The translations under genes were made by a program, and so were the position numbers. Of a DNA stretch of 64,000 bases, positions 569 to 20,230 are shown in pieces; position 1 is the stretch's first letter, and each line of letters starts with the position of its first letter. The DNA is from Flavobacteriales bacterium (GTDB lineage Bacteria; Bacteroidota; Bacteroidia; CAIKAF01), in the NCBI GenBank assembly GCA_025055575.1, contig JANWWP010000046.1, forward strand, positions 1-64,000, written 5' to 3'. The notes under the pieces were generated by a model. The model saw only the letters and a list, made by a program, of their open reading frames with translations. It did not search any database and was not told the DNA's origin.

Positions 569-1435
569 TTACTGTTCCCAGAGATCGTGCTCGAAGTTGC
601 GGATGGTTTCCTTGATTCTTTCTGACTCCAAGAGCGCGTCTAAGCCGTTCTTGACATATTGATCAATCCGGCGGTCATACACGTTATCTTCTTTGTAAAT
701 GTAACTTTGAAAAAGGCGCTTCATGAATACATCATCGTAGGTGATTTGGTGGGCCGTGTTGTTGAAACGCATGTACACTTCTTCGTTGGCAATGATTTTT
801 CTGAGATCCGGAAAGTAAATCCAAAACATATCTGAATAGCCGCGAAACTCTCTGGTATTGGGGTCCAGTTTGTCAAACACGGGGCAAATCCCGAGAATTC
901 TAACTTCCAGGACGGACCTTTGCCGGTCAAAAAACCAATCTTCCTTGATTTTGAGCTTTTTAACGCGGGAATACTCAAAAGGGTTCACAATGACGGTGTC
1001 ATATTCATCATAGGGCGGGTCGGGTCGGGTGAGCGTTTTTCGAATGGTGTCCACCCCAATCCTGGCCACTTCAGCCGTCGTCATTTGGAGCCGGAAATCA
1101 TCGTATTGAGGATCATAGGCTTTCAGGGTCTTATCCTCAAGAATGGATTTCATGACGATGTCCATGAAATTTCGTCGGCCATTGGTGGGCTCCTTCGGAT
1201 AATACATAAATTGGTTTTGCTTATCGCGGAGATCCACGACCCTCCAAATACGTCGGCTCCACATCACATCCGCCTCCCGAAGCGACGCGTAGGGCACCAC
1301 CCGGCGTGACTCTGTGTTCACTTTTTCATAGGGCAGGTCCCTTGGAATATCCACCTGGCTGCGTAGGGACAGCACAGCGGAGCCAGAAAGGAGGCCTATC
1401 GCTAAGAGTAGGACAAGGCGGATGCAGGCTTTCAT
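569..1435 (-). CDS. gldN: Gliding motility / T9SS protein GldN (PorN)
   Basis: ORF 569..1471; start trimmed to MKACIRLVLLLAIGLLSGSA (signal peptide). Position after gldM and the DVMWSRRIWRVVDLRDKQN / MFWIYFPDLR sequence fit GldN. Confidence 0.9.
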   Translation of the reverse strand: MKACIRLVLLLAIGLLSGSAVLSLRSQVDIPRDLPYEKVNTESRRVVPYASLREADVMWSRRIWRVVDLRDKQNQFMYYPKEPTNGRRNFMDIVMKSILEDKTLKAYDPQYDDFRLQMTTAEVARIGVDTIRKTLTRPDPPYDEYDTVIVNPFEYSRVKKLKIKEDWFFDRQRSVLEVRILGICPVFDKLDPNTREFRGYSDMFWIYFPDLRKIIANEEVYMRFNNTAHQITYDDVFMKRLFQSYIYKEDNVYDRRIDQYVKNGLDALLESERIKETIRNFEHDLWEQ

Positions 1436-1448
1436 AGTAATGAATTTT

Positions 1449-3068
1449 TTATTTAATTGTGAATGAGGCAAAGGCTGTTCTTTTTGTATTATCGGGCATC
1501 AGCACCGTAATATTGTCAATGTAGAGTTTTTTACCCTTGGGAATTTTTCGAATTTGATTCAAAACATCTTGGGGTATTACATTACCGGAGACCTGATAGT
1601 CGCGGATGGAACCTGTTCCAGGGTCAAAGGACACGGTGAAAGATTGAATTTTTGCAAAAACTTCGAAATCGAAGTCTTTCAGCATGGGAATGACGGCCCC
1701 GGAAGCCGATGCTTCAGCAGCTGTGAGCACTTCTCCAGATTCCTTACCGGCAAATTTGATGGTGGGGTCGGGGATACGCTTTATCCGGAATTTGGCAGTA
1801 CCCATTTGCTGCACGCGCTTTTCGTCCAACTTGGCCGATACGGATATTTTGGCTTCATTCCCGGGTCCGGGTTTTACGATGTATTTACCGTTGCCCACAG
1901 ATCTGAATTCGGAGCAGCCTTCGCAAGTGGCAGAGATAGCCGAGGGGGCTACGCCTGGAACTGAAATAGTTACAGGATTTTCCAAACCTCTGTAAAAGAC
2001 ATTCATTTTGTCCGGTGTCACGGTCATCATGGGTTTGGATACCTGATATTTGGTTTCAAAAGGTTCTTCGCGCGATAAACCAGTAGCCGGGTCCACAATT
2101 TTAATAACGCCTTTTACCGTTTTTTCGCCTTCTCCTGATGCGGTTTGTTTGAATATGCCTCTGCCGTCTTTATATTCCGTAATGCTGCCTCCGCTTTGGA
2201 GAACGATGTCCGGATTTTTGGTGGTGTTGTAGGCTGCCAGGAAAATTTCTGCCTCAAAAGGATTGCCTTCAAACACCACATTCGATTTTGGAATGATGGC
2301 GGCCTTCACAGCATCAAACTTGAACGAATTGGAAGCCACCTTTTCATACAAGTATCTTAACATTTGCCCTTCAGCATCGCGGATGTTGTTTTGCCATTTG
2401 GAAAGTTCGACTATTTGTTCGGCCAATGGAAAATGATAAAAATAATACATCTCCCATTCCACTTCGTGTTTTTCCCGGAAGTCGAATTGTTTTCCAGTGT
2501 TTAGGTTGAAGCGGAACCTGGCGGTGTCTTTCATGTCTTTAAGGAATTTTTCGCTGAGAAGCGTTTGGCGGTATTCTTCTAGTTTCTTTTTAAGTTCATT
2601 TGCTTTACCGTTTGTTCCGGGAGGTGTGGCGGTTCCAAAGAATTGAGCTGGGATTTCCACATTATCCTTGGCCCCTAATTCAAACAAATTAAATTTTCCC
2701 TGAAGCACGTCTTCTTTTGGAATTCCTTCGGCTTGTGAAACCAATTCGGCCTTCATATCTTCGATGTAGTTCACTAATTCAGTAGCCATTTTATTTACCT
2801 CGAGCGCCTTGTCGTACCAGGGTTTTATGGTTTTTTCATAATATTCCTTTTGTTCGGGCTTATCATAGAGAATTTTTAATTCTTCAAAATCATTGAGAGA
2901 CAAATTGTTTTTTCTTTCAATGTTGCCTCTCTGCACCACCATGCCTTCATTTACAACAATGAATGCGTCGAGCACTTCCTTGGAAACATTGAGCGCCAGC
3001 AGAGCTGTCAACACGAGATACATCATGTTGATCATTTTCTGCCGTGGGGATAGCTTTCCGCCTGCCAT
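1449..3068 (-). CDS. gldM: Gliding motility / T9SS motor protein GldM (PorM)
   Basis: MAGGKLSPRQKMINMMYLVLTALLALNVSKEVLDAF N-terminus and ~540 aa length are characteristic of GldM; located between gldL and gldN. Confidence 0.95.
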   Translation of the reverse strand: MAGGKLSPRQKMINMMYLVLTALLALNVSKEVLDAFIVVNEGMVVQRGNIERKNNLSLNDFEELKILYDKPEQKEYYEKTIKPWYDKALEVNKMATELVNYIEDMKAELVSQAEGIPKEDVLQGKFNLFELGAKDNVEIPAQFFGTATPPGTNGKANELKKKLEEYRQTLLSEKFLKDMKDTARFRFNLNTGKQFDFREKHEVEWEMYYFYHFPLAEQIVELSKWQNNIRDAEGQMLRYLYEKVASNSFKFDAVKAAIIPKSNVVFEGNPFEAEIFLAAYNTTKNPDIVLQSGGSITEYKDGRGIFKQTASGEGEKTVKGVIKIVDPATGLSREEPFETKYQVSKPMMTVTPDKMNVFYRGLENPVTISVPGVAPSAISATCEGCSEFRSVGNGKYIVKPGPGNEAKISVSAKLDEKRVQQMGTAKFRIKRIPDPTIKFAGKESGEVLTAAEASASGAVIPMLKDFDFEVFAKIQSFTVSFDPGTGSIRDYQVSGNVIPQDVLNQIRKIPKGKKLYIDNITVLMPDNTKRTAFASFTIK

Positions 3069-3126: not shown

Positions 3127-3933
3127 TTAAGCATTCACTGTTGTCGGACGAATGTTCATAGCGGCGAGCATGTTGCCGTAAACTGTATTGAGTGCGGACA
3201 GATTCTGACCCAGTTTGGCAATTTCTACTTTAAAGCGTTGGGTGTCTTCGACGGACTCGCTTAGGTTTGTAAGCAACTGGGCAATATTGGTATACACGCG
3301 GCTGGTGGCCTCCAGATATTCCTGCGACCCTTGAAGTTGCAATTCATATACGTTGTTCAAGGCAGAAAGATTTTTGGATACGCGCTGAAGCTCTTCTGCG
3401 AAGGACTGGCCGCTGGCTTGGCTTTCACTGAGTCCCATGAGAGACTGGGCGGCGCGCACGTAAGTTTCCGAGAGTTCTGAGACTTTTTCGCTGGCACGTG
3501 AGACGCTGTTCACGTAATTTTCAGTGGCCACCGATGCATCCGTGATGTCAGCGAGCTTGGCCGTATTTTCACTTAAGCGGTGGATACTGGAGCCCAAACT
3601 TTCAAAAAGTTCGGGACCAATTTTAGCTTCTTCCAGCAATTTATCAATTTCCTGGGTGAGGGAACCGCTGCTGCGCCCGCTTTTCTTACTATGATCTGCG
3701 GGCATTCCTGCCAATTCGGGGTAAACGAGGGTCCAGTCCAATTCTTCTGCCGGGGGATCGAAAGCGGAAATGGCAAATATGGCGGCCTCGGTGAGCAAGC
3801 CCACCGTAATCATGATGTTGGCAAAAGAAAGGTGTAGAATTTTAGCCCAGGCACCGATAATCACGACCGATGCACCCATACCGTAGATGAAGTTCATCAC
3901 GATTTTACCCTTCTTGGAATGCAGGAATTTCAT
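3127..3933 (-). CDS. gldL: Gliding motility / T9SS motor protein GldL (PorL)
   Basis: Two N-terminal TM helices (KGKIVMNFIYGMGASVVIIGAWAKILHLSFANIMITVGLLTEAAIFAISAFDPP) with a helical cytoplasmic tail; between gldK and gldM. Confidence 0.95.
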   Translation of the reverse strand: MKFLHSKKGKIVMNFIYGMGASVVIIGAWAKILHLSFANIMITVGLLTEAAIFAISAFDPPAEELDWTLVYPELAGMPADHSKKSGRSSGSLTQEIDKLLEEAKIGPELFESLGSSIHRLSENTAKLADITDASVATENYVNSVSRASEKVSELSETYVRAAQSLMGLSESQASGQSFAEELQRVSKNLSALNNVYELQLQGSQEYLEATSRVYTNIAQLLTNLSESVEDTQRFKVEIAKLGQNLSALNTVYGNMLAAMNIRPTTVNA

Positions 3934-4059: not shown

Positions 4060-5379
4060 TTACTTGTAATCTTCTTTGGCCCTTCCCATAAAGGTCTGCA
4101 CACAACGGAACCCGATGTAGCTTTTGGAGGAATCCTGGTATTCGTAAGCTCTGGAACCGGTTTGAAGGTAAAAACTTATGTCTTTCCAGGATCCCCCTTT
4201 AATGACCTTACGGCGTACAGCCGGTGGGCCATCATCTTTAGCTTCAAAATACAATTCTGGGTTCAAGTCGTGGGTAAAACTGTAGGCTGACTCTTCAAAA
4301 GCATCGCGGGTCCACTCCGATACATTACCTGCCATGCAATACAATCCATATTCGTTGGGGTTGTATGAGTTGGCCGGAACGGTATGAAATCCGCCATCAT
4401 CAATATAGTTGCCCCTCAGAGGTTTAAAATTGCCCAGGAAGCAACCTTTGGAATTTCGGATGTAGTAGCCTCCCCAGGGATAAGCGCTTAAGTCCAGTCC
4501 TCCGCGGGCTGCATATTCCCATTCCGCTTCCGTGGGGAGACGAAAGTCATGCACTGGATAATCCCCTCGAAAAGCCAGAAAGCTGTTCATGAGATTGGTT
4601 CTCCAGATGCAGAAGGCGGTGGCTTGCTTCCAGTTGATACCTACGACCGGATAGTCGTCATAAGCCGGATGCCAAAAGTACATTTTGGTCAGAGGCTCAT
4701 TATAAGAGTACGTAAAGTCTGCAATCCAAACCAAGGTATCTGGATACACATTCACTAAATCCTTGCGAATAAATACAGAACGGTCCCTCAAGCCTTGAGG
4801 CCGGTTGTTGGCAGCGGCCTTAAGGTCGATCCAGTAATAATGGTAAATCAATTTGCGGGGGTCAATGACGCGCTGGCCGTAGAACCTTTCATTTTCCGGG
4901 TAATACATTTCTTCTAAGGCTTCGCGCTCTTCTTCGCCATCCCACTTGATTTTGGCACGCCAGTTCAGGTGGGGTGGGTCCAGAGGGTTGCCGTAATCGT
5001 CTTCTTCAAAGAAATATTTTTCGGCATCCACATTTTCTCCGAGAAGACGGCGGGCAATAGAGTCCCGAACCCATTCTACAAATTGACGGTATTCATTGTT
5101 GGTGATTTCGGTTTGATCCATATAAAATGCCTGAACCGAAACCGTTTTGGTCTGCGAAATGAAATCCATGGGGACATCCTGGTCGCTGGGCCCCATATTA
5201 AAACTTCCCATGCCAATGTACACCATGCCATAGGGATCGGGCTGATACCACCGGGGCCTGTTGGGAGCCCCTACAAGCTGACCGTTATAACCCGAATTGC
5301 AACTGGCCAAAAAACCGGCAGCTGCTCCCAGGCAGGCAAGGCTTTTAAGCCAATGGCGACGTGTGGGATTGCGCTTCAT
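4060..5379 (-). CDS. gldK: Gliding motility / T9SS lipoprotein GldK (PorK), FGE-sulfatase fold
   Basis: Start trimmed to MKRNPTRRHWLKSLACLGAAAGFLASC (lipobox); GSFNMGPSDQDVP, FRLPTEAEWEYAARGG, MAGNVSEWTRDAF motifs; first of gldKLMN. Confidence 0.93.
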   Translation of the reverse strand: MKRNPTRRHWLKSLACLGAAAGFLASCNSGYNGQLVGAPNRPRWYQPDPYGMVYIGMGSFNMGPSDQDVPMDFISQTKTVSVQAFYMDQTEITNNEYRQFVEWVRDSIARRLLGENVDAEKYFFEEDDYGNPLDPPHLNWRAKIKWDGEEEREALEEMYYPENERFYGQRVIDPRKLIYHYYWIDLKAAANNRPQGLRDRSVFIRKDLVNVYPDTLVWIADFTYSYNEPLTKMYFWHPAYDDYPVVGINWKQATAFCIWRTNLMNSFLAFRGDYPVHDFRLPTEAEWEYAARGGLDLSAYPWGGYYIRNSKGCFLGNFKPLRGNYIDDGGFHTVPANSYNPNEYGLYCMAGNVSEWTRDAFEESAYSFTHDLNPELYFEAKDDGPPAVRRKVIKGGSWKDISFYLQTGSRAYEYQDSSKSYIGFRCVQTFMGRAKEDYK

Positions 5380-5458
5380 TGTTTTTGAAAGATAACGACC
5401 AGTGTAAATAGTTATTACAGATGCTTTCAATTTTTTGCGTTTGGCTCCTATTAATACG

Positions 5459-5494: not shown

Positions 5495-6445
5495 TTAATC
5501 GCGCAGCATATCCAAATCTCGCACCCGGAAGCCTCCCCCGCTGCGGGGTTCCGCATTGATGATGAAGCAATAGCGCAACATCAATTCATGTGTGCCAGAG
5601 CTAAAACGAATGATACGGCTTGTGGTGAGATCATATGAATAACCAGCGCCCAGGCTCCATTTGGGTTTTTGCAAAAAAGTGGCACCCAGATTGAGGGCCA
5701 CTGCATCCTGGAAGCGATAATTCAACCCGCCCCAATAGCGCTGTTTAAAGATTACATTACAATTGACATCGAAGGAAAGCACTTTTAAGTCTGATTTGAT
5801 TGCCAAATTGGGTGAAACGTCCCAGTTGGGATTACCTCCAATGCCCCGGAAGGTGTACCCTCCAATGAGCCACAGGTGCCGGGCCATTTTTTGATTGAGA
5901 TCACGCAACTTCATGCCCGGGATATGGGTCATGGAAAGGCCGGCGTACCAGTTGGCGGCTTGAAACATGGCTCCCAAGCCGGCGTCAAAAGCAATGGATG
6001 AAGCTTTGTTGGGAATATTCGGGTCGTTCGGATCGGCATACACCCAATCCGGATTCAGCGATTGATTTAAGAAACCCAAATCCAAGCCCAGGCTGAGGCG
6101 TCCCAGTTCGCCTATAGGAATTCGATAAGCGCCAGCCAAACGAAGCCCTGTGTTGTTGAAAAATCCGATAGATTCATTAAACACAGTGAGACCAACGCCC
6201 ACATCCATGTTGATGAAGTTTTTCAGCGAGGCATCCCCAGTGAATTGGGTTGTGCGCGGGGCGCCCTTGAATCCGGTCCACTGCAGCCGGTTGAAAAGGG
6301 TGGCACAAATATTGTCATGAATGCCCACCGAAGCCGGATTGAGCATCGGTTTGTTGAAAAAAAACTGGGTGAACTGCGGGTCTTGTTGGGCTTGGGACGA
6401 ACTCACAGCGGCTAAGGCTGCAAAGAGGGTAAATAGCTTCCGCAT
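5495..6445 (-). CDS. porP: PorP/SprF-family T9SS outer membrane protein
   Basis: MRKLFTLFAALAAVSSSQAQQDPQFTQFFFNKPMLNPASVGIHDN; PorP/SprF family N-terminus, upstream of gldK as in porPKLMN operons. Confidence 0.9.
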   Translation of the reverse strand: MRKLFTLFAALAAVSSSQAQQDPQFTQFFFNKPMLNPASVGIHDNICATLFNRLQWTGFKGAPRTTQFTGDASLKNFINMDVGVGLTVFNESIGFFNNTGLRLAGAYRIPIGELGRLSLGLDLGFLNQSLNPDWVYADPNDPNIPNKASSIAFDAGLGAMFQAANWYAGLSMTHIPGMKLRDLNQKMARHLWLIGGYTFRGIGGNPNWDVSPNLAIKSDLKVLSFDVNCNVIFKQRYWGGLNYRFQDAVALNLGATFLQKPKWSLGAGYSYDLTTSRIIRFSSGTHELMLRYCFIINAEPRSGGGFRVRDLDMLRD

Positions 6446-6549
6446 AGGCATTATGAAAAGTGACGAAAGTATTCCAAATAAAAAATCGAAGTTCAAAGGT
6501 AATATGAAAATTCGTATTCGTCAAAAATTTTGAATGCAAGGCCCCGGTT

Positions 6550-7752
6550 CTAAGTGTTTTCTGTACTAAAGCTTCCTAAATCAAAACGCTGAAGCGCTTT
6601 CCACCAGCGCTCCGGCCATTCTCCCCGGCTGGCTGTTTGGTAGTCGGTGTAGCTGCATGGGATTAAACGAGGAAATCCGGGATAGGGAGAAGCTTCCCCA
6701 AAACCAGGAATTTCCATCCACCATCGTCCAGATAGGTTGTGCCTGTAAAAGCACACCTGCCTCTCCTGAAAGCCAGAAAGCGGCACAAAAAATTGCGTGA
6801 ACTCCGGGTTGTCTTCGGAGGGTTGCTCTGGTATCCGTGCGCTCAGACCCTCTATAAGGTGCCATAACATTTGGGCCATCATTTGAGCTGACACATCCGC
6901 TCCTGAAAACCCCGGCGCCAGACGCGTATTATGAAATCCGGCCCAACGCAATTCCGGCGCAAAGCCGGCATACCGCGTCAGCCTGCAGGCCTCCACGCCG
7001 TTAAATCCGTTGGGCCGGCGGCCGAGTATTTCGGGAATATAGGCAGCTTCCAGGGCAGTGAAATCGAAGCTGAGAAAATTAGAAAGCCGCAACAAGGGTT
7101 CGGCTTCTTCAGGCACTTTTCTGAACTCAGAAAGCCGCAACACATCAAATAAAAATTTGTCTAATTGACGTCCTATGGTGGGGGCATTCAGAAAATTCTG
7201 AATACCAATAAAGCTTAAAAACCCCAAATAAGGGTTCAAATGCTGTAGCAAATTATCTATGAAATCCGGAATACAAGATGGATCTTCGGAGAAGCCGCTT
7301 ACATCAAAACAAGCGTCCACCAAGCATACATGGAGCGCCGCATGGCGCCGAGCAAGCGCCTGGGCTGCTGAAATTCCAATGTGCTGATCGCCCCCCACAC
7401 ATACTACCAAGCGGCTCAGCCCCAACAATTCCGTCCATAAGTCCACCTGGTCTTCGTCCGGCCGCGCATTCCAATCGGGGCGCAGGTTGCCCAGATCGGC
7501 CATTTTGAGCCGGACATCCGCCAGCAGATAGTAATTGTACAAATGCTCTCGGACCAGAGAAGTGAAAGGAATTTCTGAATTTTCCTGAGAATCGGAGATG
7601 AATACCAAGGCTAAATCCAGGGGCTCGCCCAGAAGGGCTTCCATACCGATGCTCAGGGTATGCTGACGTATGAGCGTGCCCAGGCGCTCGGCATGAAAGG
7701 AGCCCGCGGCAAGACGTTCGTGAACAGGATCAAAAGCCGACAGTATTTTCAT
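6550..7752 (-). CDS. Arginase/formimidoylglutamase-like (ureohydrolase fold) protein with degenerate metal-site motifs
   Basis: GGDQHIG, LVDACFDVSG and LSFDFTALEA align with arginase motifs GGDHS / DAHxD / SxDxDxxDP; the C-terminal NLSGRWWMEIP...LIPCSYTDYQTA...WPERWW resembles the arginase-like family often found near gldK in Bacteroidetes. Confidence 0.75.
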   Translation of the reverse strand: MKILSAFDPVHERLAAGSFHAERLGTLIRQHTLSIGMEALLGEPLDLALVFISDSQENSEIPFTSLVREHLYNYYLLADVRLKMADLGNLRPDWNARPDEDQVDLWTELLGLSRLVVCVGGDQHIGISAAQALARRHAALHVCLVDACFDVSGFSEDPSCIPDFIDNLLQHLNPYLGFLSFIGIQNFLNAPTIGRQLDKFLFDVLRLSEFRKVPEEAEPLLRLSNFLSFDFTALEAAYIPEILGRRPNGFNGVEACRLTRYAGFAPELRWAGFHNTRLAPGFSGADVSAQMMAQMLWHLIEGLSARIPEQPSEDNPEFTQFFVPLSGFQERQVCFYRHNLSGRWWMEIPGFGEASPYPGFPRLIPCSYTDYQTASRGEWPERWWKALQRFDLGSFSTENT

Positions 7753-7785: not shown

Positions 7786-8874
7786 CTATATCTTAGACCC
7801 AAACCAGAAGTTCAGCCCCAGCGTCCCCAGGCCAAAGAGGAGATTGGGCAACCACACGGCCCACTCGGGCGGGATGTACCCGCTGTAAGCGTAGGTTACA
7901 AAAATCCGGTCAAAAAAAATGTAGGCAAAGGCCACGGCCAACCCGATACCCACGTGGAGGCCTGTGCCCCCCCGCACCCTTCGGGCTGAAATGGGCACAG
8001 CCAGAAGTGTGAATATCAGTGTGCTGAGAGCTGTGGCAGTACGTTTGTGCATTTCCACCTCATAGTACAGGACAGCCGGGGTACCGCTCAAACGTTCCTG
8101 CCTGATAAATTCGGCCAGGGTTGGAGATGCCATGGTTTCCACGTCCTTGTTGCGCAGCTCAAATAATTCCGGGGTGAAAGGAAACACCGTGTCCAAGCGG
8201 GCGCCGCTCCTTAATTTTTCACCCTGGTCCGTGAAAACCCGCTGCATGTAATCATGCAATGACCAATGGCGCTGCAAGGTATCGTAGGTGATGTTCACCG
8301 CCAGCCATTTTTCTTTTAAAATGGTATCCGAAAACTTTTCCAATGAAAATTTATGACCAAAAAAATTGGGTGGGCTATACCAGTCCATAAAAACGAAAAC
8401 CCCAGGGGCCACCTGCCGATGGATGCTGCGGGCATCCAGATTACTCCCCCCAAAATATTTTTTTTCAAAAAGCACCCGCCGGGCATTGGCCTGGGGAATC
8501 AGATAATGCGATAAATAGAGAAGCAGCAAAGCAATACCCCCTGCCGTAAGCAAAAAAGGTCTCAGAAAACGGCTGTAAGGAATTCCGGAAGAGAATACCG
8601 CTATCAGTTCGCTCCGCATGGCCAGGCGCGAATTGAAAAAGACGACACTGATGAAGACAAACAAAGGGGCATAAAGCCCGGCGAAATAAGGTATGAAGTT
8701 TAAGTAATAATTAAGAACAACCTCTCTGGTAGAAGGCGATATTTCCTGTCCTCCATAAAATTCATCCACTTTTTCCGCAAAATCAAAAATCACCACCAAG
8801 GCCAGCAAAAGAGCCAGGGCCAATAGAAAAGTCTTAAGAAAAGTGGCTGTTATGTATCGGTCCAGGACTTTCAA
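7786..8874 (-). CDS. LptF/LptG family (YjgP/YjgQ) permease
   Basis: MKVLDRYITATFLKTFLLALALLLALVVIFDFAEKVDEF and KRTATALSTLIFTLLAVPISARRVRGGTGLHVGIGLAVAFAYIFFDRI are typical of LptF/G. Confidence 0.88.
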   Translation of the reverse strand: MKVLDRYITATFLKTFLLALALLLALVVIFDFAEKVDEFYGGQEISPSTREVVLNYYLNFIPYFAGLYAPLFVFISVVFFNSRLAMRSELIAVFSSGIPYSRFLRPFLLTAGGIALLLLYLSHYLIPQANARRVLFEKKYFGGSNLDARSIHRQVAPGVFVFMDWYSPPNFFGHKFSLEKFSDTILKEKWLAVNITYDTLQRHWSLHDYMQRVFTDQGEKLRSGARLDTVFPFTPELFELRNKDVETMASPTLAEFIRQERLSGTPAVLYYEVEMHKRTATALSTLIFTLLAVPISARRVRGGTGLHVGIGLAVAFAYIFFDRIFVTYAYSGYIPPEWAVWLPNLLFGLGTLGLNFWFGSKI

Positions 8875-13345: not shown

Positions 13346-13488
13346 GGAGGCAGAGCTTTTTTCCCGAGATTCTTAGATTCTTAGTGGGCCTGAGGTCGAT
13401 CTCTTCATGGCCCCTGGGTTTATTGTGCATTTTTTGAATACCTGAATTTTAGGTGCCCAATATTCAAATTGCTGTAATTTTGATGTAC

Positions 13489-16071
13489 ATGAAATTCAAA
13501 ATTATTGCGCGTTTCAAGCAGTCTGTTTCTTTTATTTTTTTAATATCTTGTTTCCGTTTTTCACTGGGCACGGGGTTTTCCCAACGGGAAGTTTTTTTTG
13601 TAGAATTTCAGCGGCAGGCACCATTGGACAGCCTTTATGCCGTTTTCCGGAAAAAAGGATGGACCTCCGATGCGCGGGCTCGGCTCACACTCAGGCATTT
13701 GCTGGCCGCCCATGAGGCCAGCCGGGATTTGGCTTTGGAACTGGCGGCAGTTTCAGAAAGTGCGCTGGTGGAACATTTTTGGATCGTGAACGGAGTGGCT
13801 TTGAAGGGCGATCGTTCCCGTATTTTGAAATTGCAAGGCCGGGAAGGTGTTGCGCGCATTTATGAACCTGAAGAACTGGCTTTTTTTGCCATCCTTCCCA
13901 AGGAGCCCCCCGTGCCGGCCCCTGACAAATCCGTCGGCGGGACTGAGCCCGGCCTGGAAGCCATTGGAGTGCGGGCGCTTTGGAATATGGGCTACACAGG
14001 GCGGGGCCGCCTGGTACTGAGTTTTGATACCGGGGTGTGGCCCCAGCATCCGGCCATCCAACGGGGTTTTTTGGGACGTTACCGTCCCTACCATCAAGCT
14101 TGGAAAAGCTATCACGGCGTGGAGGAACCGGCGGATAAATCCAGCAGCCACGGCACGCACACGGTTGGTACGATGACAGGCCTAGATCCGACCCAGGCCG
14201 ATACCATTGGCGTGGCTTTTAACGCGTACTATATGGCCGTGGACCCCATTGTGGTAAATCTGGCTGATACCTTGCCCTTTGTTCAGTTGATGGCAGCCCA
14301 GCAGTGGGCTTTAAACCCGGATGGCGACACCAGCACCACCCACGACATCCCGGACGTGATCTGTAATTCCTGGGGACGCCCTCCCGGCGGACTGGAAGCC
14401 AGTTTTTGTGGGGGGGGTCCGGCGCTGGCCCTGCAAGCATTGGAGCTGGCCGGCATAGCTTCAGAATACTCCGCCGGCAACGATGGTCCGGATTCAGCCA
14501 CAGCCAGCGCTCCGGCTTACATTCCTCTCTCTCCCGTGAATGCTTTTTCTGTGGGGGCCGTGAATGCCAATACTCCGGGCTTTCCCATAGCTTCTTTTAG
14601 CAGCCGTGGTCCCACGCCTTGTCCAGCGCCAGGCAGCCTCAACATTAAACCGGAAGTGGTGGCACCCGGGGTCAATGTGCGAAGTTGCGTAGGCCAAAAT
14701 GGCTACGCTTTTTACAGTGGCACTTCCATGGCCGGACCTCACGTGGCCGGGGCTTTACTTCTGCTGAAAGAAGCTTTTCCTTATTTGCCCGGGGAAATCC
14801 TGAAGGAAGCCCTCTATTACACTGCTGTGGACTTGGGGCCGATAGGTGAGGAAAATGTGTATGGTAACGGTCTCATTAACGTAGAAGCAGCCTTCCAGTG
14901 GCTGGTGGGGCAAGGTCATGTACCCGTGCCACCCGACAGTCAGCCTGACCTGATGATCTCAGCGGTAGACTATCCCGCCCAGTCTTTATTGTGTGCTCCC
15001 TTGGATCAGCTTCAGATTCAGATCACCAATCGCGGGCCTGTGGCTTTCTCTGGACTTCTTTCGGTGCAAGTGGGTCTGGTTCAGAATGCGGCCTCTTTTC
15101 AAAATCTTGATTTGGGTTCGGTAAATCTTTCTCCTGGCCAAAGCCAATCCTTGACGCTTCCTGTCACACTGATGCCTTCACCGGGAAAAAATGAGTTGTG
15201 GATACGGCTGCTTCCGCAGGACAGTACCCTGCACGAGCCAGATATCATCAACAATGAACGGAATGTTCGATTTTGGTTCGCACCCTCCGCTCCATTTCCA
15301 TTCACTGAACAATTTGAAGACAGCACTTTGACGGCCCTGAATTGGTATGTGGTGAATCCGGATTTAAATAAGACCTGGACTTTGGCATCCACAGGAGGGC
15401 AAGTCTTTGGAAATACATCTGCCCGTATGAATTTTTATGGATATGCACCTCAAAATCAAAAGGATATGCTGATTTCTCCTTGGATTTCCATGCCGGCTTC
15501 CGGCCCTGTACACCTGTTTTTTGATTATGCCTACAAATTTGTCAATTCTTCTAAGCGCGATTCCCTCCTCATTAAAGTGAGTACCGACTGTGGAATAAAT
15601 TTTCAGACGGTGGCTGCTTTTCCGGGGGATTCCCTGAATACGGTACCTTCTGGATTCAGCGGCAATTTTACTCCCTCCGAACCAGGGCACTGGCGCACAC
15701 GGGCCGTTAATCTTTCGGCCTTTGCCATGGGACAGCCCATTTTGATCGCTTTTTATACTTCCAACCGGGGGGGGTCAAACCTCTACATTGATAATGTACA
15801 TGTAACCGCTTCCGGGGTATCCATTCCCCAGAACACTTCAATATCAGATTTTAGTCTATGGCCGAACCCTGCTGCGCGGGATATCTTTGCGAACACCGGA
15901 GAGCCGGGAAATTTGAGGATATTTTCCATGGATGGCCTGCTTAGGGCCTCTTTTTTCCTGCTTGAAGGACTGCATTCTGTCCAGTTGCCTGATTTAGCTT
16001 CCGGAATGTATTTGGCCGTGTGGGAAGGAAAAACAGCCAGGAAATCCTTTAAACTGATTGTGCGTCCATGA
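13489..16071 (+). CDS. Subtilisin-family (S8) serine protease with T9SS type A sorting domain
   Basis: Signal peptide; triad regions LVLSFDTGVWPQHP, SSHGTHTVGTMTG, YSGTSMAGPHVAGALLLLK; C-terminal FSLWPNPAARDIF...LASGMYLAVWEGKTARKSFKLIVRP. Confidence 0.92.
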   Translation: MKFKIIARFKQSVSFIFLISCFRFSLGTGFSQREVFFVEFQRQAPLDSLYAVFRKKGWTSDARARLTLRHLLAAHEASRDLALELAAVSESALVEHFWIVNGVALKGDRSRILKLQGREGVARIYEPEELAFFAILPKEPPVPAPDKSVGGTEPGLEAIGVRALWNMGYTGRGRLVLSFDTGVWPQHPAIQRGFLGRYRPYHQAWKSYHGVEEPADKSSSHGTHTVGTMTGLDPTQADTIGVAFNAYYMAVDPIVVNLADTLPFVQLMAAQQWALNPDGDTSTTHDIPDVICNSWGRPPGGLEASFCGGGPALALQALELAGIASEYSAGNDGPDSATASAPAYIPLSPVNAFSVGAVNANTPGFPIASFSSRGPTPCPAPGSLNIKPEVVAPGVNVRSCVGQNGYAFYSGTSMAGPHVAGALLLLKEAFPYLPGEILKEALYYTAVDLGPIGEENVYGNGLINVEAAFQWLVGQGHVPVPPDSQPDLMISAVDYPAQSLLCAPLDQLQIQITNRGPVAFSGLLSVQVGLVQNAASFQNLDLGSVNLSPGQSQSLTLPVTLMPSPGKNELWIRLLPQDSTLHEPDIINNERNVRFWFAPSAPFPFTEQFEDSTLTALNWYVVNPDLNKTWTLASTGGQVFGNTSARMNFYGYAPQNQKDMLISPWISMPASGPVHLFFDYAYKFVNSSKRDSLLIKVSTDCGINFQTVAAFPGDSLNTVPSGFSGNFTPSEPGHWRTRAVNLSAFAMGQPILIAFYTSNRGGSNLYIDNVHVTASGVSIPQNTSISDFSLWPNPAARDIFANTGEPGNLRIFSMDGLLRASFFLLEGLHSVQLPDLASGMYLAVWEGKTARKSFKLIVRP

Positions 16072-17038: not shown

Positions 17039-20000
17039 CTATCTGTACAACACAATGTGCCCCATGTATCTGCCGACATCGCCGTTCAGATATTTGATTT
17101 GGCAGCGATAAACGTAAGTGCCTTGGGGTGCTTCCCGGCCTTGATAATAACCATCCCATCCTTTATACACATCATCGGAGAAAAAAATCTCTTCTCCCCA
17201 ACGGTTAAAAATGCGCAGTTCAAATTCTTTGACTCCGTAGGCAATGATGCGCCATTCCTCATTTATGCCGTTGCCATTGGGCGTAAAAGTGTTCGGAATA
17301 TGCGGCCCGTCGCGCACCACCACCACTTCCACAAAGCGCTCGGCACGGCAGCCGGTGGTGTCGGTGTAAGTGACGGTATATGTTGTGGTGCGGGGCGGAT
17401 ACACTAAAGTTGAGGGGCAATTGAGACATTCGATATAATAATTGGGCGACCAGGTGCTCGTAAGCGTTCCAAAGCCACCGGAAGCTGAAGAGTTAATGAC
17501 CACGCTCTCGCCCATCCAAATAGTGTGGGATGTATCACTGGTTATTGTTATAGCCGGGGGATCCTGAAGCACCAATACAAGGGTGGTATCGCATCCAGCG
17601 GTGTCGGAGATATGGATGTAGAAGGTGTCTGCAGGGAGGTAATATTGCACAGCGGGACCTGGTTCCCCGTTCCAAACAATGGTATAAGGAGGCTGGCCCC
17701 CGGTGATGCTGAGCTTAATGGACCCTGAGTTTTGTCCATGGCAGCGAGGCTGTGTGAGAGTGGCCACAGGCAGGATGGGATTGGAGGCCAAAAGAGTGAA
17801 ACTGGTGTCCAAAACACAGCCGCCCGAAGAAATCTGAACATGGTAAGTTCCGCTTGTCAGTCCGTTGACGGCGGAAGAGGTGGGCCCATGGCTCCAGAGA
17901 TAGGCGTAAGAACCTGTCCCACCGGATGGAATCAGGCTGATGGCACCGCCCTGTCCGTTGCAATTGGGCTGCGTGATGAGGGCCTGCAGTTGAATAACCC
18001 CATCGCCCGGAAGCACATTCAGGGTGTCATGAACGGTGCATCCGGCCGTATCGCTCACCGTCAGGATCACCTGACCGGGCTGGGGCACTATCAGGGTATC
18101 CGGATTTTGGGTGGGTTGACCACCGCTCCATTGAATCGTAAATGGCCCACCAGTGCCCTGAATATCTGCTGTCAGAATCGCAGAATTACCACAGGAAAGT
18201 GGAACAATCTGCTGAATCTCGGCATCCAGTAAAGGCAATTGAACGAGGGTTACGGTATCGCTCACCGAGCATACCCAGCCTCCCGTGACCTGGCTTGTGG
18301 CACCGGCCAAAATAAAGACGTCGTTGATGGCTACGGATGGGTCCGCACCCAAACCGTCGTCGTTGTTGCGCCAAGTGAAGCCTATTTGCAAGTTGGGGAT
18401 GTTCTCACAAGATGGGGGTAAAGAAAAAGTCACTTGGGTCCAAAGGCCTTGGGAAGCGGCACAAACGTTGCTTTGAAGGGGCGAAATCATGGTCCAGCCT
18501 GAACCATCGTTGTACCATACAGCGGCCTCATCCATCTGGGACTGGCCATAAGCAATAAAGTCAAACTGAAGTGTCAAGTTGCTGTATCCTACTGTGCTAA
18601 TGGGCACAGATTCCGCCCGCACGTGGGTGGTGACACACATCAGCAACGGACAAAGTCCGCCCGCGTTGTAAAGGGCCCCTCCATTGGTAAGGGTGTTGGT
18701 GATATGCAGTGTCGCGTTGCCATTATACTGAACAGCACAATTGCCCGGCGACATCCCGCCTTCGGCGTCTGAAATGATCCAATAATTTGCCTCCGGATCG
18801 TTGATTCCAAAAGGCACGTTGAGGGTCCATTGCACTGCGCCGTCAAAATCGTCGCTCCATACCGTGACACCGCCACTGCTGACCCCTCCCGTGATGGTAT
18901 CATACACTGTGACGGCGTAAGTGCCGGCCGGTAGGTTGCTCAGGGTGGGTCCATTACCGTTCACGGGCCACCATTGATAACTGAGGCCTCCCTGAGCGTT
19001 CTGAACCTGCACGGAAATGCTGCCGTTGTCTGTGGCTGAGCATCCTGGATTTTGGATCGTGAAGGATAATTGAGGTCCGGGCAGCTGCTGGATTACCACG
19101 GAATCGGTGATGCTACATTGGGCCAGAAAAGTGGTGAGATTGTAAACGCGAATGTCATCCACGGCAAAAGAAGGATCGGTGCCTATGCCATCGTCGTTGT
19201 TTTGCCAGTTGAAGGCTATTCGCACGTTGGGATTGTTTTGGCAATTGGGCGGTAGGGGCGCCACATACACACTCCATAAACCCTGCCCTGAAGGGCAAGT
19301 GCTGGTGACGGGAATGTTGACCGGGGCTGGTTGCCAGGATATTCCATCATGAAAGAAAAGCTGGGCCTGATCCACCCCTGCCTGGCCTTTCATAATATAA
19401 TGAAAGGAAATAAACACATTGGAATAACCGGCCGTGGAAAATAGTGGCGATTCAGCCCGACGGTTTGTGGTGACGCACATCAGATTGGGGCAAAGTCCGC
19501 CGGCATTGTAGGCGGCCCCCCCTGAAGGATTAAAAGTGGAGGTCACGTGGAGGGTGGGGTTGCCATTAAATGCCACACCACAAGCTGGCGGGATTTGCCC
19601 TCCTTCGGCATCCGAAATAGTCCAGAAATTGGCATCGGCATCGTTGGGCCCTGTGGCCACATTAAGCGTCCATGTTCCGGGCATTGAAAAGTTTTCAGAA
19701 AATAATTCCTGGGTCACAGTGACCGGCATAATGTCCGATGCTGTGACAGTGTAAGTCCCAGGCGCCAGGCTGTCTATGATGGCTGTGGTTTCTCCTCCGG
19801 GCGACCAAACATAGGTGTAGTTGCCTGTGCCGCCCGAGAGGGAAGCAGCCGCCATACCGTTGGTGATGCCCGGGCAGCTGACGTCCTGAGTTTGAAAACT
19901 GAGCACCGGCAGTTGCGCCACTGTGATGTAATTTGTCATACGCAAAGAATCCACCTGGACTCCGTCGCTCACAATAAGCAATACATCAAAAACCCCGGGT

Positions 20001-20230
20001 GCGGAATAACAGATCTGAGGAGGATTAGGCCCCAAAAAGACTCCAGGGGTACCGCCGGGAAATTCCCACTGCCATGCCACGATAGGCCCTGTACTGGTGT
20101 TGTTGAAAGTGATACATTGTCCTTGACACAGGGCCTGTTGCGGGGTGGAAAATGAAGCTGTAATCTGAGCCTTTGCCGGGCTGCTGAAGCCTAAGATGGT
20201 TAGAATTGTTATGAAACCTCTTAGCTTCAT
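17039..20230 (-). CDS. Large secreted PKD / SprB-repeat-like protein with gliding motility-associated C-terminal domain (T9SS type B)
   Basis: N-terminal signal and PKD; repeats such as SCPGITNGMAAASLSGGTGNYTYVWSPGGETT; C-terminus PHIPNTFTPNGNGINEEWRIIAYGVKEFELRIFNRWGEEIFFSDDVYKGWDGYYQGREAPQGTYVYRCQIKYLNG. Confidence 0.9.
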   Translation of the reverse strand: MKLRGFITILTILGFSSPAKAQITASFSTPQQALCQGQCITFNNTSTGPIVAWQWEFPGGTPGVFLGPNPPQICYSAPGVFDVLLIVSDGVQVDSLRMTNYITVAQLPVLSFQTQDVSCPGITNGMAAASLSGGTGNYTYVWSPGGETTAIIDSLAPGTYTVTASDIMPVTVTQELFSENFSMPGTWTLNVATGPNDADANFWTISDAEGGQIPPACGVAFNGNPTLHVTSTFNPSGGAAYNAGGLCPNLMCVTTNRRAESPLFSTAGYSNVFISFHYIMKGQAGVDQAQLFFHDGISWQPAPVNIPVTSTCPSGQGLWSVYVAPLPPNCQNNPNVRIAFNWQNNDDGIGTDPSFAVDDIRVYNLTTFLAQCSITDSVVIQQLPGPQLSFTIQNPGCSATDNGSISVQVQNAQGGLSYQWWPVNGNGPTLSNLPAGTYAVTVYDTITGGVSSGGVTVWSDDFDGAVQWTLNVPFGINDPEANYWIISDAEGGMSPGNCAVQYNGNATLHITNTLTNGGALYNAGGLCPLLMCVTTHVRAESVPISTVGYSNLTLQFDFIAYGQSQMDEAAVWYNDGSGWTMISPLQSNVCAASQGLWTQVTFSLPPSCENIPNLQIGFTWRNNDDGLGADPSVAINDVFILAGATSQVTGGWVCSVSDTVTLVQLPLLDAEIQQIVPLSCGNSAILTADIQGTGGPFTIQWSGGQPTQNPDTLIVPQPGQVILTVSDTAGCTVHDTLNVLPGDGVIQLQALITQPNCNGQGGAISLIPSGGTGSYAYLWSHGPTSSAVNGLTSGTYHVQISSGGCVLDTSFTLLASNPILPVATLTQPRCHGQNSGSIKLSITGGQPPYTIVWNGEPGPAVQYYLPADTFYIHISDTAGCDTTLVLVLQDPPAITITSDTSHTIWMGESVVINSSASGGFGTLTSTWSPNYYIECLNCPSTLVYPPRTTTYTVTYTDTTGCRAERFVEVVVVRDGPHIPNTFTPNGNGINEEWRIIAYGVKEFELRIFNRWGEEIFFSDDVYKGWDGYYQGREAPQGTYVYRCQIKYLNGDVGRYMGHIVLYR
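18296..19699 (-). repeat. Two internal paralogous ~190-aa domains within the 17039..20230 CDS (approx. 19136..19699 and 18296..18856)
   Basis: Both share WTLNV..G.ND..AN(F/Y)W.ISDAEGG...YNAGGLCP.LMCVTT..RAES...STGYSN... and NP.(V/L)(R/Q)I(A/G)F.W(Q/R)NNDDG(I/L)G(T/A)DPS.A(V/I). Confidence 0.85.

Follow-up and report, generated by a model that had tools for sequence, protein, structure and literature searches.

Metformin hydrolase provides a described case in which a metal-free arginase-fold subunit serves a catalytic paralogue, its MetCb chain being a metal-free pseudoenzyme partner of MetCa from a clade that has lost three to five metal ligands (PMC11271267). Here, we analyze a gene for another arginase-fold protein with a degraded metal site, located beside core genes of the type IX secretion system (T9SS) in a 64,000-nucleotide stretch of a Flavobacteriales genome (GenBank assembly GCA_025055575.1, contig JANWWP010000046.1, positions 1 to 64,000; hereafter the window). 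An initial annotation made from the sequence alone proposed that this metal-poor pseudoenzyme could be a cytoplasmic T9SS or gliding factor. The fold, the degraded site, now seen family-wide, the gene position, and the co-occurrence with T9SS across the class all held up in our analysis, and the dedicated T9SS role did not. With a probability that we put at roughly one half, we favor the reading that the protein is a pseudo-ureohydrolase, located in the cytoplasm and belonging to the core gene set of Bacteroidia, that binds without hydrolyzing, and that its T9SS neighborhood mainly reflects ancestral gene order. The gene and its features are as follows:

6550..7752, minus strand: gene for the arginase-fold protein (P0001), 400 amino acids; open reading frame with an ATG start and a PF00491 match
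7381..7395, minus strand: GGDQH, counterpart of GGDHS, residues 120-124; ligand His replaced by Gln
7303..7317, minus strand: DACFD, counterpart of DAHxD, residues 146-150; Cys in place of the central His, the two Asp retained
7057..7071, minus strand: SFDFT, counterpart of SxDxD, residues 228-232; second Asp replaced by Thr
6553..6837, minus strand: C-terminal extension of about 95 amino acids, residues 306-400; conserved motifs F, WW, PC, DY, and P; predicted small sheet and two helices

Fold and family assignment

The initial annotation had placed the open reading frame correctly, and several lines of evidence agree on the arginase fold that it proposed. P0001 matches the Pfam Arginase family PF00491 (E = 1.4e-6; 28.4 bits vs a cut-off of 22), and the closest sequence profile to that of the family alignment is formimidoylglutamase 3m1r (E = 1.4e-19). 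An AlphaFold model from a 58-sequence alignment (mean predicted local distance difference test score [pLDDT] 84, predicted template modeling score 0.88) shows an alpha/beta domain that ends near residue 305, followed by a small C-terminal unit of sheet plus helices. Foldseek returned 221 matches to this model at E <= 0.001, with ureohydrolases on top and metformin hydrolase chains first (E = 1.5e-12), and together with the PF00491 match these place P0001 in the arginase/ureohydrolase superfamily. Membership of the NCBIfam formimidoylglutamase family TIGR01227 does not follow, as P0001 reaches only 29.6 bits where the curated cut-off is 229; as judged from sequence, the enzyme name is therefore not supported and would be a misnomer if applied to this family. 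No signal peptide was recognizable in P0001, and its location is predicted to be cytoplasmic. Two further PF00491 genes of this genome do carry the ligand motifs, which read GDHS/DAHAD/SFDVD in one and GGDH/DAHCD/SFDID in the other.

Loss of the metal site and conservation elsewhere

In the family alignment, the ligand positions H-D-H-D-D-D read Q-D-C-D-D-T in P0001, such that three of the six ligands are retained and the GGDHS, DAHxD, and SxDxD motifs of a binuclear center are all incomplete. The initial annotation had read these motifs accurately (GGDQHIG, DACFDVS, and SFDFTALEA) and counted two losses, the DAHxD His and the last motif's second Asp, whereas the first-motif His is also gone, making three. 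Homologs were present in 38 of 40 relatives (related loci were retrieved with an alignment as query and not with the single window protein), and across 135 family members between 0 and 4 of the six ligands are retained (mode 3, in 86 members) and none has 5 or 6. The degraded site is thus a trait of the whole family, not the product of chance or local decay. Gln occupies the first-motif ligand position in 74% of members and His in 11 members; the middle position of DAHxD is effectively unconstrained (Arg is commonest, at 21%) between Asp residues conserved at 86% and 82%; and the second Asp position of SxDxD is Ser, Gly, or Thr in most members and Asp in 3. Because formimidoylglutamase 3m1r also has its first-motif His replaced (GGDNS), that loss alone is not diagnostic, and the losses of the DAHxD His and the second SxDxD Asp are more telling. 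The three retained ligand Asp residues are found in 82-90% of members; they too are gone in several lineages, including many family-level relatives of the window (patterns such as ATRPNG and KSTNDG), while the other invariant residues stay.

Overall, the ligand columns range from 21 to 90% conservation, while R68, Q185, G249, W297, G302, and W344 are 100% conserved, E218, R222, C256, and C366 stand at 96-99%, and D86, G88, F202, R206, P219, G263, F335, and W345, along with these and others, reach at least 95%. Conservation has therefore moved off the metal site, and metal-site loss is general in the family, with selection acting on other residues. The order of the strands and the alignment with 3m1r would put Q185, D86, and R206 at the C-terminal ends of strands, the site of the former pocket.

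The C-terminal extension is similarly constrained, with F335, W344, W345, C366, D370, Y371, and P380 at 95-100%. No convincing match to this domain was found in Pfam (the best weak hit, SH3b_P2, was obtained for 5 of 56 members with E of 0.001 at best) or among PDB sequences, and for the unit modeled alone (pLDDT 74) a fold search of the PDB gave no match at E < 1. Outside Bacteroidia, few of the matches listed in a phylum sample extend beyond residue 310, and they resemble ordinary ureohydrolases.

Retention after T9SS loss

The proposed T9SS role can be examined in a genus of family f26, here called g31, in which the family is present in all 61 genomes sampled (E = 3e-144 or better). Nine of these genomes lack GldM, and none of the nine has a SprA match; 7 are at least 95% complete, 3 are single-contig assemblies, and one, G481, additionally lacks GldL, GldB, and GldD. 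Two GldM-positive genomes, G041 and G676, also have no SprA match, so SprA alone is an imperfect T9SS marker in this genus; these two possibly represent a half-lost T9SS or a divergent SprA, and gldM is split in two frames in G676. Since the T9SS-negative genomes scatter in at least six places on the protein tree, the system was probably lost several times within g31. Each of the nine copies in T9SS-negative genomes is an open reading frame and has the C-terminal motif, and in the two T9SS-negative/T9SS-positive genome pairs with measurable synonymous divergence (dS) the nonsynonymous-to-synonymous rate ratio (dN/dS) is 0.033 and 0.030, compared to 0.022-0.030 in four T9SS-positive pairs (the remaining pairs are saturated). 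Intact copies and unchanged dN/dS in the absence of the T9SS indicate that the gene is maintained independently of it. A dedicated T9SS function is not supported: the gene remains in genomes without GldM and SprA under purifying selection like that in T9SS-positive genomes. The g31 copies share only 57-62% protein identity with those of named Pedobacter and Mucilaginibacter species, which gives no support to a placement of g31 in Pedobacter suggested by the gene order of its family.

The recurrent losses of the core T9SS proteins GldM and SprA in g31 were seen in G654, G675, G682, G687, G691, G695, and G481, and gldM is broken or fragmentary in G676 and G643.

Distribution and gene order

In Bacteroidia, the family was found in 371 of 396 genomes (E <= 1e-20, mixed alignment) and is absent from 25. 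When the same genomes are sorted by GldL, 369 have both, 2 have the family only, 18 have GldL only, and 7 have neither, with five unlisted negatives in this table assigned by subtraction. One of the two family-only genomes is G481 of g31; in the other, G358, the gene begins 471 bases from the end of its contig and GldL is present in congeners, so that the lack of GldL is probably an assembly gap. The 18 genomes with GldL only are spread over seven families. A lack of gliding, checked through the gliding lipoproteins GldB and GldD, does not explain them, as 12 of these genomes have GldD. Co-occurrence with the T9SS therefore stands across the class and fails inside g31, where we meet the kind of result, a family without T9SS, that the initial annotation itself had named as counting against its proposal.

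Families f32, f33, f95, and f104 contain genomes with GldL and without the arginase-fold family, and no shared trait explaining the loss was found among them.

The neighbors of the arginase-like gene in the window are these:

7786..8874, minus strand: LptF/LptG-family permease gene (PF03739), the immediate upstream neighbor, with a gap of 33 bp
6494..6525, minus strand: probable porP promoter of Bacteroidetes type (TTTG-N20-TAnnTTTG), reading TTTG-N20-TACCTTTG, in the interval that separates porP from the arginase-like gene; from a pattern search
5495..6496, minus strand: porP/sprF-like gene (PF11751, TIGR03519); true start probably the ATG at 6451 or 6445
4060..5430, minus strand: gldK (TIGR03525, 596 bits)
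3127..3933, minus strand: gldL (TIGR03513, 235 bits)
1449..3068, minus strand: gldM (TIGR03517, 369 bits)
569..1471, minus strand: gldN (TIGR03523, 223 bits)

The Pfam and TIGRFAM matches agree with the earlier placement of porP-gldKLMN downstream on the same strand, and by position the gene looks like a T9SS component, being encoded in or beside the core operon. The distance of 54 bp originally given to porP had been measured to a TTG start at 6496 that is likely wrong; because this TTG adjoins the putative promoter and the first ATGs of porP lie at 6451 and 6445, the two genes are probably separated by about 100 bp, and the predicted promoter may give porP-gldKLMN a transcript of its own. 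The promoter pattern occurs at 4 sites in the window vs 2.3 expected by chance; its position is suggestive and not proof. Sites of this -33/-7 type were found in 6 of 51 gaps between arginase-like and T9SS genes (1.3 in shuffles), so that a promoter like that of the window is not general among its relatives.

Upstream, the LptG-like gene fills the place usually held by topA in the window and its congener G001; in most relatives topA is there. Among 35 loci of the relatives set with both neighbors visible, 25 have topA upstream and porP or gldK downstream, 1 has topA only, 4 have the T9SS genes only, and 5 have neither; the respective counts for 73 loci of organism-named genomes are 18, 19, 0, and 36. 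In 19 of the 30 family-level lineages sampled, topA is the next gene upstream and has the same orientation, with a median gap of 34 bp (some pairs overlap by 4 bp) vs 132 bp for porP or gldK, and this neighborhood is also kept where T9SS genes do not adjoin.

Elsewhere at these loci, two or three gldN-like genes stand in tandem after gldM in L036, L037, L041, L044, L052, L063, L072, L080, and L101, compared to one in the window. The window also encodes a large repeat-rich secreted protein of 1063 amino acids (17039-20230, minus strand), whose C-terminus resembles, by eye, a gliding-associated type B sorting domain, and a subtilisin-like protease (13453-16071, plus strand), whose C-terminal region, again by eye, is similar to a T9SS sorting domain.

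Interpretation and alternatives

As we see it, the protein has kept the arginase fold and lost the two-metal center, while selection has shifted to a different set of residues in the arginase domain and to a new C-terminal domain. Most likely it would act as a sensor or scaffold that binds a small molecule or another protein, without hydrolyzing a guanidino or formimino group, and its adjacency to topA and porP-gldKLMN would represent class-ancestral gene order and not T9SS membership. The fold, the loss of ligands across the family, the conservation of other residues, the order of the genes, and the persistence without the T9SS are observed here, whereas the cytoplasmic location, the lack of activity, and the binding role are inferred. 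Several observations weigh against this reading. Most members still have the three Asp residues and the Gln of the former site A, so that a single metal ion and residual chemistry may persist. The family and GldL are associated across the class (Fisher p = 6e-8, uncorrected for relatedness), and the gene adjoins porP or gldK in 20 of 30 sampled family-level lineages, which confirms the recurrent position mentioned in the initial annotation; both exceed what would be expected of an unrelated gene. In the window and G001 the T9SS link persists even though topA is gone.

The alternative that survives best, though we consider it improbable, is an active enzyme with altered chemistry, employing either a mononuclear metal site of Gln and three Asp or a metal-free site of Arg, Glu, Gln, and Cys. 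The frequencies of those Asp and Gln residues and the invariant polar set R206, E218, R222, Q185, C256, and C366 are consistent with this, but in several lineages the Asp residues have been lost with the other invariants intact, so that a metal at this position cannot be the common function, and no paired pathway genes were recognized in the neighborhood.

It is somewhat less likely that the protein is an accessory T9SS or gliding factor, helping from the cytoplasm in the assembly or regulation of the GldLM motor or in gldKLMN expression. The order topA-arginase-like gene-(porP)-gldKLMN in many lineages and the presence of the family in 369 of 387 GldL-positive genomes are what such a factor would show, but a T9SS component would be expected to be lost or relaxed along with the system, and neither g31 nor the class-wide table fits that expectation. 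The T9SS-positive genomes without the gene and the wider gap and probable promoter before porP also speak against it. In the open-licence literature, searches that paired arginase or formimidoylglutamase with T9SS, gldK, gldL/gldM, or gliding returned nothing on this protein, and we came across no mutant of it there. We regard as equally doubtful a broader proposal, a class-wide Bacteroidia regulator in which the metal-free old pocket would sense a nitrogen metabolite and the C-terminal domain would signal to a conserved target, with the T9SS/topA operon as one output where the genes are joined.

Considerably further down is a metal-free partner subunit of an active ureohydrolase, on the model of MetCb with MetCa. 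The Foldseek ranking and the ligand losses of the MetCb clade bring it to mind, and most genomes do hold one or more PF00491 genes besides the family, but family-positive genomes G481, G478, G504, and G638 have no other PF00491 gene, which rejects an obligate role, and none of the neighborhoods examined has an adjoining active arginase-family gene of the kind seen in metCa-metCb. Least probable of all is a protein that acts with DNA topoisomerase I or regulates topA expression, for the tight linkage described above is missing from the window's genus, from f26, and from several further families, and the 25 family-negative genomes, which must have a topoisomerase I, indicate that TopA does not need it.

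Returning to the pseudo-ureohydrolase that we favor, a formimidoylglutamase label would mislead pathway reconstruction for a protein found in most Bacteroidia, because despite its sequence resemblance the protein scores below the formimidoylglutamase cut-off and is missing residues on which the reaction depends. The invariant residues and the unmatched C-terminal domain offer a concrete target for structure and genetics, and the T9SS-negative members of g31 are the kind of species in which to seek the real function. More generally, the T9SS-loss test is a reason against inferring a secretion role from gene order alone.

Comparison with known systems

Formimidoylglutamase (HutG; TIGR01227; Bacillus subtilis 3m1r) shares its fold with the P0001 family, is closest to it by profile, and likewise has the first-motif His replaced; unlike that enzyme, the family has lost the DAHxD His and the second Asp of SxDxD and carries an extra C-terminal domain. 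MetCb (MfmB) of metformin hydrolase, the enzyme whose chains top the Foldseek list, resembles the family in being an arginase-fold pseudoenzyme without most metal ligands, but MetCb has a catalytic paralogue encoded beside it and the P0001 family does not. The arginase-like protein of Trypanosoma brucei is a eukaryotic arginase relative, unlike the bacterial P0001 family, and to our knowledge has no C-terminal extension like that of P0001. Finally, the GldK/PorK lipoprotein encoded in the same operon (FGE-sulfatase fold, PF03781) is also a repurposed enzyme fold in the T9SS cluster (PMC12421860). GldK/PorK is a proven component of the T9SS ring, whereas the P0001 family is kept without the T9SS.
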